From the IMG/VR virus record IMGVR_UViG_3300009164_004472, positions 1 through 22,102 of that record: a stretch of DNA of 22,102 nt. One strand, given 5' to 3'. Below the pieces are notes generated by a model that did no database searches, was not told where the DNA came from, and saw only the letters and a list, made by a program, of their open reading frames with translations. Every line of letters starts with the position of its first letter. Positions within the stretch are counted from its first letter, which is position 1. Shown here one piece after another: positions 5,472 through 22,102 of the stretch. Source of the stretch: a virus. The position numbers were made by a program, and so were the translations under genes.

Positions 5472-6085
5472 AACTAGAGTGCGGTCCGTCCCACGATATC
5501 AGAACATTGGATATTGAACTTCCCACTGACTATAATCGAATTGGGGTTATGGTTAGTGGAGGAATAGACAGCACTATTCTTTATTATTTGATACTCTCAT
5601 TAGCTAAAAATACAGACTATTATACAAGAGCCTTTTGTGTTAAACGCAAAGAAGGTTCTGTATACCACGCCAAACCTAGTGTAGAAGAAGTAGGTAGACT
5701 ATTTAACAGAACTAATGACTTCCCTACGTTTGTGGGCGACAATACATTACCCGAACTACAACAAGTGGAGTCTGGAATAAGAGATGCATATAAATTTGCA
5801 AGAATAGAAGTAATGTATGTAGGGGTTATTGCTAACCGTGATGAACACCTTATTGGATATGATAAGACAGTTGTTACTGAATATGACCATATTAAATTTC
5901 CCTTTCAATATTTAGAAAAGTCTCATGTGGTCGATTTGTACTATAGATTAGGATTAGAATACCTATTAACATATACTCATAGTTGTGACCATAACGAACA
6001 CAGGCATTGCTGGAACTGTAACGGTTGTAATGAACGCATTTGGGCATTTGAGCAATTAAATCAAAAGGATCCTAAACGAACATAA
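5468..6085 (+). CDS. PP-loop ATP pyrophosphatase, QueC-like
   Basis: 205 residues. SGGIDS at 30-35 is the PP-loop that binds ATP and adenylates a substrate. Near the C-terminus C173, C181, C184 and C187 (HSC...HCWNCNGC) reproduce the four-cysteine zinc site of QueC, which makes the nitrile of 7-cyano-7-deazaguanine. If it is a QueC, it would feed queuosine or a 7-deazaguanine DNA modification of the kind several phages use. The partner genes (folE, queD, queE, a transglycosylase) are not in this window, so related PP-loop functions remain possible. It is translationally coupled to the wall hydrolase (ATGA). Confidence 0.75.
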   Translation: MKLECGPSHDIRTLDIELPTDYNRIGVMVSGGIDSTILYYLILSLAKNTDYYTRAFCVKRKEGSVYHAKPSVEEVGRLFNRTNDFPTFVGDNTLPELQQVESGIRDAYKFARIEVMYVGVIANRDEHLIGYDKTVVTEYDHIKFPFQYLEKSHVVDLYYRLGLEYLLTYTHSCDHNEHRHCWNCNGCNERIWAFEQLNQKDPKRT

Positions 6086-14630: not shown

Positions 14631-14713
14631 GCCCCGATGGTGGAATTGGTAGACACGCTGGTCTTAGAAGCCAGTGCGAGAGCATCTCGGTTCGAGTCCG
14701 AGTTGGGGCACCA
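14631..14713 (+). tRNA. tRNA-Leu (UAG)
   Basis: Acceptor GCCCCGA with TTGGGGC, loop CTTAGAA, long variable arm (class II), CCA encoded. The CCA forms the start of a long linker hairpin (14711-14788). Confidence 0.93.
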
Positions 14714-14788
14714 TATAAAAACATACTGTATTGGCAGAGTAGCGAGGTCTGTCTTAAAGGTAGCTCCTATCAGTGTGTTCTTATATGG
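14711..14788 (+). repeat. tRNA-linker hairpin, copy A
   Basis: Arm 14711-14728 starts in the CCA of tRNA-Leu and pairs with 14771-14788, whose last GG are the first bases of tRNA-Ala: 18 positions with one A-C mismatch and one wobble. The inside (14729-14770) has a smaller helix GGCAGA/TCTGTC. Copies B and C keep the foot (CCATATAAAAACA / TGTGTT..TATATGG) while inner stem pairs change in a compensated way. Confidence 0.75.
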
Positions 14789-14862: not shown

Positions 14863-15058
14863 AGTTTATGTCTAGTTGGAAATGAAAGTTAGTAGTGAAA
14901 CAATACCTTGAACAAGTATTGCGGAGTGAATACAAGTAGTTGTCCTGACTGTTCGACCCAAGAGGTGTCAAACCCGTAGATTAAGTTCCTACGCTCTCGC
15001 TCAAGGGATGTTGCTGTATCACAACAGCACTAGACTCCAAGTTTTGTAAGGACACTGA
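14863..15058 (+). other. Non-coding spacer with small hairpins
   Basis: No tRNA found. Hairpins include AATAC/GTATT near 14920, CGTAG/CTACG near 14975-14995 and GCTGT/ACAGC near 15012-15028. The end (TAAGGA) is the ribosome site of the next gene. Confidence 0.35.
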
Positions 15059-15250: not shown

Positions 15251-15311
15251 ACTTACAAATTCAACAAACAAAAGTACTACAATTCTGTAGTGAAAATACA
15301 ACACGAAAAGG

Positions 15312-15340
15312 TTTACATCAAATACGTTTGGTGCTATACT
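15312..15340 (+). promoter_or_regulatory. Promoter for the large structured RNA region
   Basis: TTTACA (15312-15317), 17 bases, TATACT (15335-15340), placed just before ~550 bases with no ORF but many helices. Confidence 0.7.
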
Positions 15341-15885
15341 ATGTTTAATGAGTTGAGAGATTGATTCAGGTTGTTTCAAACAGCGAGACACGCTAGCAAT
15401 AGCAAAAAGTCAAGCAGGAAACATTAAATGAGTTTGTGACTCAGCCTAAACTACTCTGAGACCGCCGAGAAACGGTGGTACCACAAGAGACCCATGTCAA
15501 CATGGGTCCTCGGAGTATAAAGCAGAGGGAGAAATCCCCGAGGCTGGCAGTTGAAAAATTACTGCCACAGTAATATTTAACCAACGCAGTCGATTGAGAC
15601 TAGTTGTAATGTTCGTTAAAATTTTAATTTTTCGTATAGCCCTATTAAGTTTAGGGTACTATATGTAAACACATTAGGGTTACCTAGTCCGTTAGGGGTG
15701 AACGAAGGTTGATACGAACCGGATACCCATGAAGCAGGAGGGTTCTAGAGTATGATGAGACACCATCGAGTCAAAGGGCAAGAACTATCAAACTCCAGGG
15801 AGGCGACGGAACAACTAGGCACGTAATGAGGTCTTGACGCAAGTTGGTGATGAGTATCAAGAACTCCCCTAATGTATTTTCATAT
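15341..15885 (+). ncRNA. Large structured non-coding RNA candidate (GOLLD/ROOL-like class?)
   Basis: About 545 bases without a plausible gene, starting at a promoter and ending at tRNA-Glu. Helices seen: CTCTGAG (15454-15460) with CTCGGAG (15509-15515) enclosing a perfect 7-bp hairpin ACCCATG/CATGGGT (15490-15507, loop TCAA); TGGCAGT/ACTGCCA (15545-15551/15561-15567); TATAG-CCCTA with TAGGG-CTATA (15635-15644/15652-15663); GGTT/AACC near 15708-15720. Large ornate RNAs of the GOLLD and ROOL families occur in phages next to tRNAs, which fits this setting. I cannot confirm either family from memory of their consensus. A bespoke tRNA-array RNA is the alternative. Confidence 0.5.
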
Positions 15886-15890
15886 AGTAT

Positions 15891-16143: not shown

Positions 16144-16416
16144 AGTTTGAGAGTCATATCGCCTGGATACTTCCCTCGCAAGAGGCACTAGATCCTGCAA
16201 CTTGTCTCTCTCCCAAACGTTCCGCTTAGTTCGCGGATACTGTGACCCGCAGGATGAGAAGTACAATGACATGTACGGGTGGTAGTCTTTAAACCGAAAG
16301 GCCGCTAGCAATGCGATAACGGTCCCTGTCGGGAAGCGGGTGGAGGGTATGTGTGATGACTCCAAAGGTCTGATGTACTATAATTACCGCCGAGGGATGC
16401 AGAGCAATTAATTCAT
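16144..16416 (+). ncRNA. Structured non-coding spacer
   Basis: No tRNA or credible gene. Helices: TTTGAGAG (16146-16153) with CTCTC..AAA (16208-16217); ATCCTGC/GCAGGAT (16192-16198/16249-16255) enclosing CCGC/GCGG (16222-16225/16233-16236); GTACA/TGTAC near 16261-16277; CCC/GGG near 16324-16333. These look like a folded RNA. A possible promoter (ATGACT at 16356, 17 bases, TATAAT at 16379-16384) serves tRNA-Cys downstream. Confidence 0.4.
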
Positions 16417-16955: not shown

Positions 16956-17031
16956 GGAAGCATAACTCAATGGCTAGAGTACCCGGCTTTTAACCGGATA
17001 GTTGTGGGTTCGAGTCCCACTGCTTCTACCA
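16956..17031 (+). tRNA. tRNA-Lys (UUU)
   Basis: Acceptor GGAAGCA/TGCTTCT, loop CTTTTAA, CCA encoded and forming the foot of linker hairpin B. Confidence 0.9.
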
Positions 17032-17110
17032 TATAAAAACATACTGGTCTACCGCCACCGAGAGGTAGTTAAAGACAATGACAAGCAACAGCCAGTGTGT
17101 TTCTATATGG
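17029..17110 (+). repeat. tRNA-linker hairpin, copy B
   Basis: Arm 17029-17047 starts in the CCA of tRNA-Lys and pairs with 17092-17110: 19 positions with one A-C mismatch and one wobble. An inner hairpin CTACC/GGTAG lies at 17049-17053/17064-17068. Here the next tRNA (Pro) starts 9 bases further on instead of overlapping. Confidence 0.75.
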
Positions 17111-17198: not shown

Positions 17199-17266
17199 GT
17201 TTTAGGATGCGTCCAGCAAATAAAAAAATTAGACTTTTAATCTAAAAATAAGCATCCTGTTTTATT
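17199..17266 (+). repeat. AGGAT...ATCCT element 1 with tRNA-Lys-like anticodon stem-loop
   Basis: Starts directly after the tRNA-Pro CCA. Outer stem AGGATGC (17204-17210) with GCATCCT (17252-17258), an AGCAAA motif near the 5' strand, and inside a 5-bp hairpin TTAGA/TCTAA closing the 7-base loop CTTTTAA (17234-17240), identical to the loop of the tRNA-Lys (UUU) in this array. There is no D or T arm. GTTTTAT follows the stem, so a terminator is an alternative reading. Confidence 0.6.
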
Positions 17267-17349: not shown

Positions 17350-17423
17350 GGGGTTCTCATATAATGGGATTATGCTAGCCTTGCAAGTTAGTCATTGGGG
17401 TTCGATTCCCCAGTTCTCCACCA
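17350..17423 (+). tRNA. tRNA-Ala (UGC), copy 2, imperfect acceptor
   Basis: Anticodon stem CTAGC/GTTAG with loop CTTGCAA, strong T arm, CCA encoded. The acceptor GGGGTTC/GTTCTCC keeps the alanine G3-U70 but has two T-T mismatches at positions 5 and 6. It may be decaying or adapted. Confidence 0.75.
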
Positions 17424-17428
17424 AGTTA

Positions 17429-17539
17429 AGGATACATACAGCAAAACTATCATAAACGATAGGTAGTTGGTTCGATCCCAACATTTCGCTTCATGCGAGA
17501 TTAGCTCAATTGGTAGAGCATTCGTCAAGAATGTATCCT
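17429..17539 (+). tRNA. Circularly permuted tRNA (CAU anticodon; Met or Ile2) inside an AGGAT...ATCCT stem
   Basis: Order along the DNA: outer stem strand AGGATACAT (17429-17437), AGCAAA, loop bases T33-CAU-AA (17450-17455), anticodon stem 3' strand ACGAT (17456-17460), variable loop AGGTA, T arm GTTGG-TTCGATC-CCAAC (17466-17482), acceptor 3' strand ATTTCGC (17483-17489), TTCAT, acceptor 5' strand GCGAGAT (17495-17501), D arm GCTC...GAGC (17504-17519), anticodon stem 5' strand TTCGT (17521-17525), C32, then outer stem strand ATGTATCCT (17531-17539). Every canonical part is present with right lengths: 7-bp acceptor (one wobble), 4-bp D stem, 5-bp T stem, 5-base variable loop; the 27-43 pair is T-T. 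Joining C32 to T33 gives loop CTCATAA. CCA is not encoded, unlike the clear neighbours. Confidence 0.8.
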
Positions 17540-17550
17540 GTTTTATTCAT

Positions 17551-17626
17551 ATCCTGCTAGTTTATCGGTTAAGAACAGTGGCCTTTCAAGTCGCAGAGAC
17601 GGGTTCGATTCCCGTGCAGGATGCCA
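17551..17626 (+). tRNA. tRNA-Glu (UUC), copy 2
   Basis: Acceptor ATCCTGC/GCAGGAT, anticodon stem GTGGC/GTCGC, loop CTTTCAA, terminal GCCA. Clearly different in sequence from the copy at 15891. Confidence 0.87.
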
Positions 17627-17696
17627 GTTTTAGGATAGCAACAGCAAACAAATCCAATTTCACTTTTAATGAAAAAAAGATGCTATCCTGTTTTAT
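17627..17696 (+). repeat. AGGAT...ATCCT element 3 with tRNA-Lys-like anticodon stem-loop
   Basis: Starts right after the tRNA-Glu CCA. Outer stem AGGATAGC (17632-17639) with GCTATCCT (17682-17689), AGCAAA, and hairpin TTTCA/TGAAA around the same CTTTTAA loop (17663-17669). Outer and inner stems differ from element 1 by compensated changes, while AGCAAA, the loop and the trailing GTTTTAT are kept. Confidence 0.6.
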
Positions 17697-17899: not shown

Positions 17900-17981
17900 G
17901 GGGGATTAGCTTAACTGGGAGAGCATCTGTTTCAAGTGATTGAAGTAGAAGGTGATGGTTCAATTCCGTTATCCTCCACCA
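17900..17981 (+). tRNA. tRNA-like gene with alanine-type acceptor and no normal anticodon loop
   Basis: GGGGGAT/ATCCTCC is identical to the acceptor of the tRNA-Ala at 14787, including G3-U70; D arm and T loop (TTCAATT) are present and CCA is encoded. The anticodon arm is abnormal: CTGTTTCAA pairs with TTGAAGTAG over 9 positions around GTGA, or TCTGT/GTAGA closes a 14-base loop. Neither gives a 7-base anticodon loop. Alanyl-tRNA synthetase does not read the anticodon, so it could be charged but not decode. The stop of the minus-strand SGNH gene falls inside this arm. Confidence 0.65.
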
Positions 17982-19102: not shown

Positions 19103-19241
19103 TTTCGGGATAGACGTTATGATTGAGTCCCTTGTAATCTAGCACATGGAGGCATGTGTGACACACCAGTAGATTATAAAGGTCGATAAACTCTTGTATA
19201 CGAGACACGCTAGTTTACAGTACACAGACTAGTTCCTGAAA
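19103..19241 (+). ncRNA. Structured RNA spacer between tRNA-Ile and tRNA-Met
   Basis: TTTCGGGA (19103-19110) pairs with TCCTGAAA (19234-19241) around the whole spacer. Inside, TAATCTA/TAGATTA (19135-19141/19170-19176) encloses the perfect CACATG/CATGTG hairpin (19143-19148/19153-19158), and CTAGT/ACTAG lies near 19210-19232. The nested helices suggest an independent folded RNA domain; no ORF. Confidence 0.5.
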
Positions 19242-19250
19242 ATCTATAAC

Positions 19251-20056: not shown

Positions 20057-20123
20057 CTCAGTTGGATAGAGTACTTGGCTTCGAACCAAGAGGTCGTGGG
20101 TTCGAATCCTGCAGGGCGGGCCA
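20047..20123 (+). tRNA. tRNA-Arg (UCG)
   Basis: Acceptor CCGCCCT/AGGGCGG, perfect anticodon stem CTTGG/CCAAG, loop CTTCGAA. Its first ten bases are also the end of the SGNH gene, and its CCA is the foot of linker hairpin C. Confidence 0.9.
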
Positions 20124-20196
20124 TATAAAAACACATTCGCGGCTCCCGGGGCTAAGGGTACGTTGTACGACTACCCTAGAATGTGTTTCTATATGG
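20121..20196 (+). repeat. tRNA-linker hairpin, copy C
   Basis: Arm 20121-20138 starts in the CCA of tRNA-Arg and pairs with 20179-20196, whose GG opens tRNA-Ser: 18 positions with one A-C mismatch. Compared with copy B, a T-G pair becomes C-G and the innermost pairs are changed on both strands. Inner helix AGGGTA/TACCCT (20155-20160/20172-20177). Confidence 0.75.
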
Positions 20197-20924: not shown

Positions 20925-22102
20925 ATGTCAAAGATTATCGGTATCGACCTAGGTACCACAAACTCATGTGTAGCCGTTATTGAAAACGGAATTCCCAAAG
21001 TAATTGAAAACAGCGAAGGTGCTAGAACTACACCCTCAATTGTTGCTTATGCCAACAATGAGATTCTTGTAGGTGCAAGTGCTAAACGTCAAGCAGTTAC
21101 AAACCCAAAAAATACTATCTATGCTAGCAAGCGATTGATTGGACGTAAGTTCAGTGAACACGCTGTACAGAAAGATATAGACTTAATGCCATACAAAATC
21201 ATTCAAGCAGATAATGGTGATGCATGGGTACAAGTCAATGAAGATAAATTAGCACCCCCACAAATCAGTGCAGAAGTATTACGCAAAATGAAAAAGACTG
21301 CGGAAGACTATTTAGGTCATGAAGTAACACAAGCAGTTATTACTGTTCCGGCTTACTTCAATGACAGTCAACGCCAAGCAACCAAAGATGCTGGCAAGAT
21401 TGCTGGTCTAGAAGTATTGCGTATTATCAATGAACCAACAGCAGCCGCATTGGCGTATGGTATTGATAAGGCAGATAAAAAAGATAGAAAAATTGCTGTC
21501 TATGACTTAGGTGGTGGTACGTTTGACGTTTCAATCATTGAGATTGCTAACGTTGATGGCGACAAGCAAATTGAAGTATTGTCAACAAATGGTGATACAT
21601 TCTTAGGTGGTGAAGACTTTGACCAACGCATCATGGATTATTTGATTGATGAATTCAAAAAGGATTCAGGAGTCGATTTAAGTAAAGATGTATTGGCACT
21701 ACAACGTCTAAAAGAAGCCGCAGAAAAGGCTAAAATTGAGTTGAGTAGTACAGCACAAACAGACGTTAACTTACCTTATGTAACAGCAGACGCAAGTGGT
21801 CCTAAACATATGAATGTTAAGTTGACACGTGCTAAGTTAGAAAGTTTAGTTGACGAATTAATTCAACGTAGTATCGAACCATGTAAAGTTGCAATGAAAG
21901 ACGCAGGCGTTACAGCTAGTGATATTGACGAGGTTATTCTTGTTGGTGGTATGACACGCATGCCTAAGGTACAAGAAGCAGTTGAAAAACTATTTGGTAA
22001 GACTCCGCGTAAGGATGTTAACCCTGATGAAGCAGTTGCCGCTGGTGCCGCAATTCAGGGCGATGTTTTAGGTGGTGGACGTACTGATGTATTGTTATTA
22101 GA
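20925..22102 (+). CDS. dnaK: Hsp70 chaperone DnaK, N-terminal 392 residues
   Basis: Runs off the window end; a full DnaK is ~640 residues, so the whole ATPase domain and the linker start are here. Signature segments: [14 protein letters not shown] (phosphate loop 1), [45 protein letters not shown] (phosphate 2) and [14 protein letters not shown] (adenosine). The final [11 protein letters not shown] is where the interdomain linker begins. The wording is very close to betaproteobacterial DnaK and has no obvious defects, so it was probably taken from a host fairly recently. Phage DnaK could aid capsid or replication protein folding or replace host DnaK. Strong ribosome site AAAGGAG. Confidence 0.97.

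Follow-up and report, generated by a model that had tools for sequence, protein, structure and literature searches.

A dense array of tRNA genes in a viral record holds, at positions 17429 to 17539, a unit in which a T arm stands ahead of a D arm, and the question it raises is whether this is a tRNA gene with its halves exchanged or an RNA of another kind. The window, by which we mean the whole 22.1-kb viral record analyzed here, contains 24 tRNAs called by ARAGORN; the unit itself, named E2 below, is called as a tRNA neither by that program nor by the Rfam tRNA model (RF00005). The original prediction took it for a circularly permuted tRNA gene with a CAU anticodon.

The layout behind that prediction agrees with the sequence letter for letter, with the T-arm half upstream of the D-arm half. 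E2 (17429..17539, + strand, as are its parts and the flanking elements and tRNAs described below), recognized by its folding z-score, alignment covariation, and model R2, is closed by a frame stem whose 5' strand, AGGATACAT (17429..17437), pairs with ATGTATCCT (17531..17539), followed by GTTTTATT. This stem is a perfect 9-bp helix, as proposed, and is supported by stem covariation over 232 elements. A CAGCAAA motif (17439..17445) lies 10 nt from the stem start, and a local hairpin, CTATC-ATAAAC-GATAG (17447..17462), occupies the place of an anticodon arm. Letters, predicted fold, and alignment together define the remainder: a T arm, GTTGG-TTCGATC-CCAAC (17466..17482); an acceptor stem, ATTTCGC/GCGAGAT (17483..17501), whose strands at 17483-17489 and 17495-17501 form the expected 7 bp, one of them G-U, joined by a TTCAT loop; and nucleotides 8-9 with the D arm GCTC/GAGC (17502..17519; strands at 17504-17507 and 17516-17519).

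As a single strand, E2 has a minimum free energy of -34.6 kcal/mol (z -5.5) that was equalled by none of 200 dinucleotide shuffles, and the predicted fold includes the T-arm, acceptor, D-arm, and frame helices as well as the local hairpin. When E2 is aligned with 24 relatives, 96.7% of the cells in its structure pair, against 87.0% after shuffling, and both-side changes are found in 5 of 7 acceptor, 4 of 5 T-arm, and 2 of 6 outer-stem pairs, with one of the alignment measures being reached by 32 of 500 shuffles. Covariation across these 25 permuted elements is seen in the acceptor, T, and frame helices; the D arm is invariant and so carries no information for or against itself. The conservation of E2 is far above chance.

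It is barely credible that E2 is a functionless relic of a recombined tandem tRNA pair. Tandem tRNA junctions do mimic its layout in models, and one such junction in the window reaches 25.4 bits with R2. E2 itself receives 124.4 bits, a match by construction since E2 is a training row of R2, but relatives outside the training rows score 109.7 bits (locus L171) and 74.2 bits (L164), and cultured isolates 56-69 bits. The frame and the permuted layout, moreover, are retained with compensatory changes in all 24 aligned relatives, covariation that contradicts a relic, and among the relatives fetched we met no ordinary tRNA of which E2 could be the broken remnant.

E2 is flanked by two smaller units in the same frame, E1 and E3, which the original prediction did not mention. 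The string AGGATNNNNNCAGCAAA occurs without mismatch at exactly three sites in the window (17204, 17429, and 17632), and E1, E2, and E3 are each closed downstream by ATCCTGTTTTAT. E1 (17204..17258) and E3 (17632..17689) are minimal elements with no T or D arm. Each has a 5-bp hairpin, TTAGA-CTTTTAA-TCTAA (17229-17245) in E1 and TTTCA-CTTTTAA-TGAAA (17658-17674) in E3, whose 7-nt loop, CTTTTAA, is that of a Lys(UUU) anticodon arm. The short-element model R1, in which both are training rows, gives them 70.1 and 61.5 bits; it gives 12.4 bits to E2 and 29.9 bits to the identical copy of E2 in locus L049. A tRNA ends 5 nt ahead of each of the three elements, and another begins 10-12 nt beyond it: the ARAGORN-called tRNA-Ala (17350..17423) ends 5 nt before E2, and tRNA-Glu (17551..17626, also ARAGORN) begins 11 nt downstream of E2, its own end lying 5 nt ahead of E3.

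The frame shared by these elements, a stem of the form AGGATNN/NNATCCT with CAGCAAA inside it, recurs widely. In IMG/VR the pattern AGGATNNNNNCAGCAAA...ATCCTGTTTTA is present in 51 viral stretches at the spacing of E2 (75-105 nt), in at least 119 at the spacing of E1 and E3 (20-50 nt), and in 5 at 50-75 nt. A rescan of the fetched loci that fixed CAGCAAA and its 10-nt offset and allowed any 6-bp stem returned 354 places and 232 distinct elements. The seventh pair, on which the scan placed no demand, is formed in 221 of the 232 (CG 112, GC 70, AT 23, TA 14, GT 2), and the letters of the stem change in pairs (AGGAT 209, AGGTT 7, GGGAT 4, AGAAT 2, AGGCT 2). When the offset could range over 8-12 nt, it was 10 nt in 332 of the 363 better candidates from the fetched loci. 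The pattern by which most loci had been fetched prescribes AGGAT, CAGCAAA, and the offset, so that the commonness of all three is in part ascertainment. The later counts leave out 8 of the 232 distinct elements that have other stem starts, and those of short elements leave out any holding GGTTC, which removes some whose own frame reads CGGTTC. E1, E2, and E3 all have the 7-bp stem, the CAGCAAA about 10 nt in, and the strand of the tRNAs by which we recognize the family, and all three are training rows of the models. A pattern search of genome contigs returned 20 stretches, of which those in Marinifilum, Neisseriaceae, and Hyphomicrobiales MAGs (L164, L171, and L167/L173) look real by eye and with R2; the remaining stretches looked chance-like by eye and were set aside. 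R1 finds 1-5 matches each in the window and in 15 viral records (122-383 kb) that were chosen for holding elements.

The elements behave as units of the tRNA array. The 330 places in 159 loci that enter this count, which like the anticodon counts and the classification of long elements leaves out genome-contig loci, have a tRNA in the locus in 329 cases, and all 329 are on the strand of the nearest tRNA. The upstream tRNA ends exactly 5 nt from the element in 180 of 319 cases and within 20 nt in 248, while the element ends 9-12 nt ahead of the next tRNA in 212 of 317. Since this spacing is that of the array units themselves, release by tRNA-processing enzymes is a natural inference. We regard it as almost certain that the framed phage RNA family is real. 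To the full explanation, in which E2 belongs to a large, apparently unnamed phage RNA family encoded as extra units of tRNA arrays and its members act on tRNA-attacking enzymes in the way proposed below, we give a little short of an even chance. We recognized no earlier report of such a family in the open-licence literature, which is no proof of absence. Nucleotide-similarity look-ups in named phages gave no match for a 1.2-kb region, for E3, or for an element of locus L013; for E2 they returned 14 records whose matches fall on tRNA genes or on junctions between tRNAs; in two of these records the matching place is unannotated or lies under a hypothetical protein.

In short elements like E1 and E3 the frame presents an anticodon-like hairpin. 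A Watson-Crick stem of 5 bp with a 7-nt loop is found in 100 of 137 distinct short elements (shuffles: mean 19.1, maximum 28), and in 62 this loop reads CUNNNAA (shuffles: 0.7, maximum 4). No excess over the null mean is seen for loops of 3-6, 8, 9, 11, and 12 nt; those of 10 nt, like those of 7 nt, do exceed the null (24; mean 13.6, maximum 20). With looser stems, CUNNNAA is present in 81 of 136 short elements, in 11 loop types. Position 34 of these 81 loops is U in 64, G in 14, C in 3, and never A, with A making up 47% of the inner bases; A34 is rare in real anticodons. Position 36 is U or A in 80 of the 81. The anticodons are UUU (40), UGA (12), GUA (8), UCU (5), UGU (5), GUU (4), CGA (3), and four others once each. 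In an alignment of 51 short elements every one of the five hairpin pairs shows both-side changes, which over the full structure amount to 121 cells, shuffles giving 31. Two of the five measures, the number of pairs with such changes and that of further pair types, are no higher than in shuffles. Here and in the alignment of E2 the elements are related, and shuffles that ignore kinship overstate significance. The hairpin is not universal, as 28 of the 137 have no 7-nt loop with U33 and a purine at 37 even when 4-bp stems are included, and one subgroup has a hairpin with a 4-nt loop, TTGTC-TAGC-GACAA. The stems are AU-rich and weak, and the minimum free energy structure of the inner part has no hairpin in 19 of 89. 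We also considered that the short elements are copies of the phage's own tRNA hairpins and rejected this for tRNAs of the same anticodon in the same locus, which are identical at no more than 13 of 17 positions. Very probably, then, the short elements imitate an anticodon arm, and the family as a whole imitates tRNA.

Long elements place other parts of a tRNA in the same frame. By a motif rule, 48 of 69 distinct long viral elements have a T arm before a D arm, 3 have the ordinary order, 17 have a T arm only, and 1 belongs to neither class; 3 more of ordinary order were recognized by eye among the 17. Most of the other elements with a T arm only seem to have a different fold. A further core in the same frame (for example in L007, L011, L023, and L033) combines a T arm with GC-rich stems and no recognized D arm. 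One RNA frame accommodates several tRNA topologies, the permuted one included.

Against this background the claim of a permuted tRNA gene divides into two parts. The permuted tRNA-like fold is real and conserved; its maturation to a decoding tRNA is unsupported. For E2 to be a genuine permuted tRNA gene, the frame would be cut off, the ends ligated, and the acceptor loop opened by RNase P and RNase Z. Several features agree with this. The 3' half lies upstream of the 5' half and the acceptor strands are paired, the D, T, and acceptor sizes are canonical, and a split anticodon stem, TCGT/ACGA, is possible in E2 with 4 of 5 pairs. Across 17 rows of the E2 branch that stem forms 65 of its 85 pairs, against 57.4 in shuffles, 1 of 2000 of which attains this number. 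In addition, 7 of the 25 aligned permuted elements retain an intact 7-nt anticodon-like loop (CTTCTAA, CTTATAA, CTTGAAA, or CTTAAAA), which is presented by a local hairpin in front of the T arm. In E2 and its 13 closest relatives, a hairpin with a loop of 4-6 nt takes the place of the 7-nt loop, and the hairpin at 17447-17462, which uses bases of the proposed anticodon stem, precludes that stem for as long as the hairpin is formed. Joining C32 to T33 does yield CTCATAA in E2 and in one relative (L004). The CAU anticodon is nevertheless not conserved: among the 13 closest relatives, ATAAAC is retained in L004 and L029 only, and the remaining 11 have AAAC, CAAAC, or ACAAAC in its place. In algal and archaeal permuted tRNA genes the 3' half also stands ahead of the 5' half. 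E2 differs from them in its acceptor loop of about 5 nt, which is short and has no CCA, in the unconserved anticodon of its branch after joining, and in a frame that it has in common with non-tRNA cores, and no bulge-helix-bulge was recognized in it. At least 137 of 224 distinct framed elements are short and have no T arm, so that most distinct members use the same frame without a T or D arm, and a few are of ordinary order. Among 49 viral records, RtcB was found in none and a T4-Rnl1-type ligase in 2; the cultured relative CBB, on the other hand, is said to possess two RNA ligases in an excerpt of PMC5259590. Taken together, a decoding tRNA made from E2 is quite improbable.

The order of T arm, acceptor, and D arm in E2 is also the order of the bacterial Y RNA YrlA (RF02553), an RNA that the original prediction left out of account and in which, with Ro60, the same permuted module with its closed acceptor sits on a stem. 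E2 and its kin could accordingly be phage Y RNAs, with the YrlA module and a frame stem that would bind Ro60 and either tether it to nucleases or gate its ring. The Rfam YrlA model aligns to E2 end to end (model positions 1-114) at 26.3 bits, far from its gathering score of 69. Since an ordinary junction of tandem tRNAs in the window comes close to E2 with the same model (25.2 bits), we discarded the YrlA score as lone evidence. The gathering threshold is itself a weak test of membership, given a YrlA score of only 27.1 at a locus linked to Ro60, to which a similarity look-up with an element of locus L015 led us. There, in Brevundimonas phage Kabachok (ON529852), three permuted tRNA-like units can be seen by eye in one intergenic stretch (L185 2790-3400), within a 6-kb region that has no ARAGORN tRNA. 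The units lie beside KABACHOK_03570, which is annotated as hypothetical and matches TROVE/Ro60. The locus has a partial Rfam YrlA match, and R2 matches two of the units (46.8 and 25.6 bits). Phages thus do have Ro60-linked loci with the permuted fold. The E2 family, however, has another frame, another genomic setting, and anticodon hairpins, and no TROVE was found with it: there was none in 49 and a further 48 viral records, mostly fragments, and none in 7 isolate records, six of them element-bearing, leaving a Ro60 of the host as a possible partner. Its stem and motif also differ from those of YrlA, and most distinct members have no tRNA module of the YrlA kind, showing an anticodon-like hairpin instead of a T or D arm. 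The family resembles the tRNA-like module of YrlA as an imitation, membership in YrlA is unsupported, and phage Y RNAs are an unlikely identity for it.

Cultured jumbo phages encode members of the framed family as well. R1 finds them in 6 of 7 isolate records (Cronobacter GAP32, Pectobacterium CBB, Serratia BF, Erwinia SNUABM_47, Xanthomonas XbC2, and Erwinia Kaldavass), their top scores being 26-32 bits. These elements are diverged and have other stem letters, mostly keep ACAGCAA or something near it, and were found by model, with script-placed starts 8-11 nt from the motif; members of the GAP32 type were detected by the covariance model only. No R1 match was obtained in T4, XacN1, Atu_ph07, SCTP-2, RaK2, X1, IME-SM1, Kabachok, or 121Q. 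Permuted members were found with R2, at the isolate scores given above, in 5 of 10 scanned loci from the R1-positive isolates. The one in GAP32 (L203 3825-3943, JN882285 310124-310242) has no annotated feature over it, and some 60 nt ahead of tRNA-Asn(GUU) the same phage has a short element whose loop is GUU (L203 4563-4626). ARAGORN misses these units in the window, and in the GAP32 region analyzed both ARAGORN and the annotation by the depositors miss them; an RNA family has in this way gone unseen between annotated tRNAs. Serratia BF, Pectobacterium CBB, Cronobacter GAP32, and the others make the family testable. As a separate observation in GAP32, L203 571-694 looks by eye like an ordinary-order Lys(UUU)-like tRNA with an insertion that holds CACAGCAA; neither the depositors nor ARAGORN call a tRNA there.

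What the family does is a more tentative matter. The frame, its covariation, the anticodon-like loops, the position in the array, and the occurrence in cultured jumbo phages are read from the sequences directly. We suggest that the frame, which consists of a stem of about 7 bp and (A)CAGCAA(A) about 10 nt inside it, presents exchangeable imitations of tRNA. Its core would be an anticodon stem-loop by itself (in E1, E3, and the majority of the distinct members gathered), a permuted fold (E2), an ordinary-order fold, or a T-arm fold. The elements would be released from the array transcript along with the neighboring tRNAs and protected by the closed frame. They may then serve as decoys or competitive substrates that occupy host enzymes attacking tRNA, such as anticodon nucleases and similar defences, with each core imitating the part of a tRNA that one attacker reads. 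The imitation of tRNA in many variants points to tRNA-attacking enzymes, as does the overlap with known targets: AriB of PARIS depletes tRNA Lys(UUU), Thr(UGU), Asn(GUU), and Thr(CGU), according to an excerpt of PMC12409363, and three of these four anticodons (UUU, UGU, and GUU) occur in the element set, with Thr(CGU) absent. The UGA, GUA, UCU, and CGA elements are outside the AriB targets described in that excerpt. A role as competitive inhibitor has been suggested for the tRNA-like domain of YrlA (in part of PMC7790460), and this together with the AriB overlap is why decoys are preferred. Since the E2 branch has no anticodon loop, the bait in E2 would have to be the elbow or acceptor part. 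Some other partner that binds ACAGCAA would fit equally well. Decoy action against tRNA-attacking defences is the reading to which we give most credence, ahead of sponges for modification enzymes or other readers, Y RNAs, and permuted tRNAs in that order, and we hold it with somewhat less than even confidence.

The sponge reading holds that the elements titrate tRNA-modifying enzymes or another reader of U36/A36-A37-A38, or regulate host translation, and are no nuclease decoys. U36 or A36 precedes A37 in nearly all of the CUNNNAA loops (80 of 81), and loops of these types bear t6A or i6A-type modification. The U36/A36 bias may merely reflect A/T-rich composition, and titration would leave the members without an anticodon loop unexplained; this role seems rather unlikely, if less so than that of a Y RNA. 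Returning to the decoys, we consider it possible, with slightly less assurance than for the decoy function as such, that large phages have a modular scaffold in which interchangeable pieces of tRNA (single anticodon hairpins, whole permuted folds, and T-arm folds) form a panel of bait, made in the very arrays whose tRNAs the bait would protect; the permuted fold that Y RNA also has would in that case be a tRNA imitation working without Ro60. If the units are decoys, phages would counter tRNA-attacking immunity with dedicated RNA imitations besides spare or resistant tRNAs, and the anticodons of an array would predict the defences that its hosts use.

Other phage RNAs and one eukaryotic RNA bear comparison. 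The phage tRNAs that evade tRNA-targeting defences are likewise made by phages in arrays and have overlapping identities (UUU, UGU, and GUU); they are whole working tRNAs, whereas the short elements cannot decode. The stable RNAs C and D of T4 are also small RNAs beside phage tRNA genes, and were rejected as members: no frame was seen by eye and T4 has no R1 match. GOLLD and ROOL are phage RNAs near tRNA islands, as described in part of PMC12286853, and are much larger and of other structure. A GOLLD RNA lies in one element-bearing locus (L087 407-872), and another, L111, holds a permuted tmRNA and a group I intron (160-391 and 5544-5735). The dictyostelid Class I RNA (RF01414) is closer in appearance. 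An excerpt of PMC7919456 describes an RNA of about 60 nt with a closing stem, an ACAGCAA motif inside the 5' strand, and a variable remainder, reported as unique to Dictyostelia, and the excerpt describes no anticodon hairpin. The short elements have the closing stem, the ACAGCAA-type motif (CCAGCAA in E1), and the length in common with it; the 3' CUGU end, however, is absent in most of the displayed GAP32-type members. With the Class I model E1 scores 26.8 bits, E3 20.5, and two places in L111 35.4 and 19.2, all below the gathering score of 41.5. The 35.4 bits, the best score seen, belong to a short element with CTTACAGCAA that was chosen by eye (L111 5335-5390). No above-threshold Class I match was among the 150 of 251 matches listed. 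The likeness may be convergence, and there is only a very slim chance that the dictyostelid RNA is of the same framed lineage as the phage elements.

The window holds further features beside the framed elements. Four noncoding stretches (14866-15058, 15290-15889, 16147-16415, and 19105-19250) look by eye like large structured RNAs; no Rfam matches up to E 1 are listed inside them, and the second contains a 23-bp inverted repeat (15657-15679/15867-15889). The tRNA at 17900-17981 has an odd anticodon loop, 'caag' (tRNA-??? in ARAGORN), and is possibly a tRNA of the frameshift type. From 20926 to 22102 runs the open 5' part of a gene that by eye is DnaK-like, in what is a phage record. Finally, a second intergenic stem family, CATATAAAAACA ... 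TGTGTTYYTATATGG, lies between tRNA genes at 14712-14788, 17030-17110, and 20122-20196, and its pattern is present in at least 119 viral stretches, in some of them on both strands.
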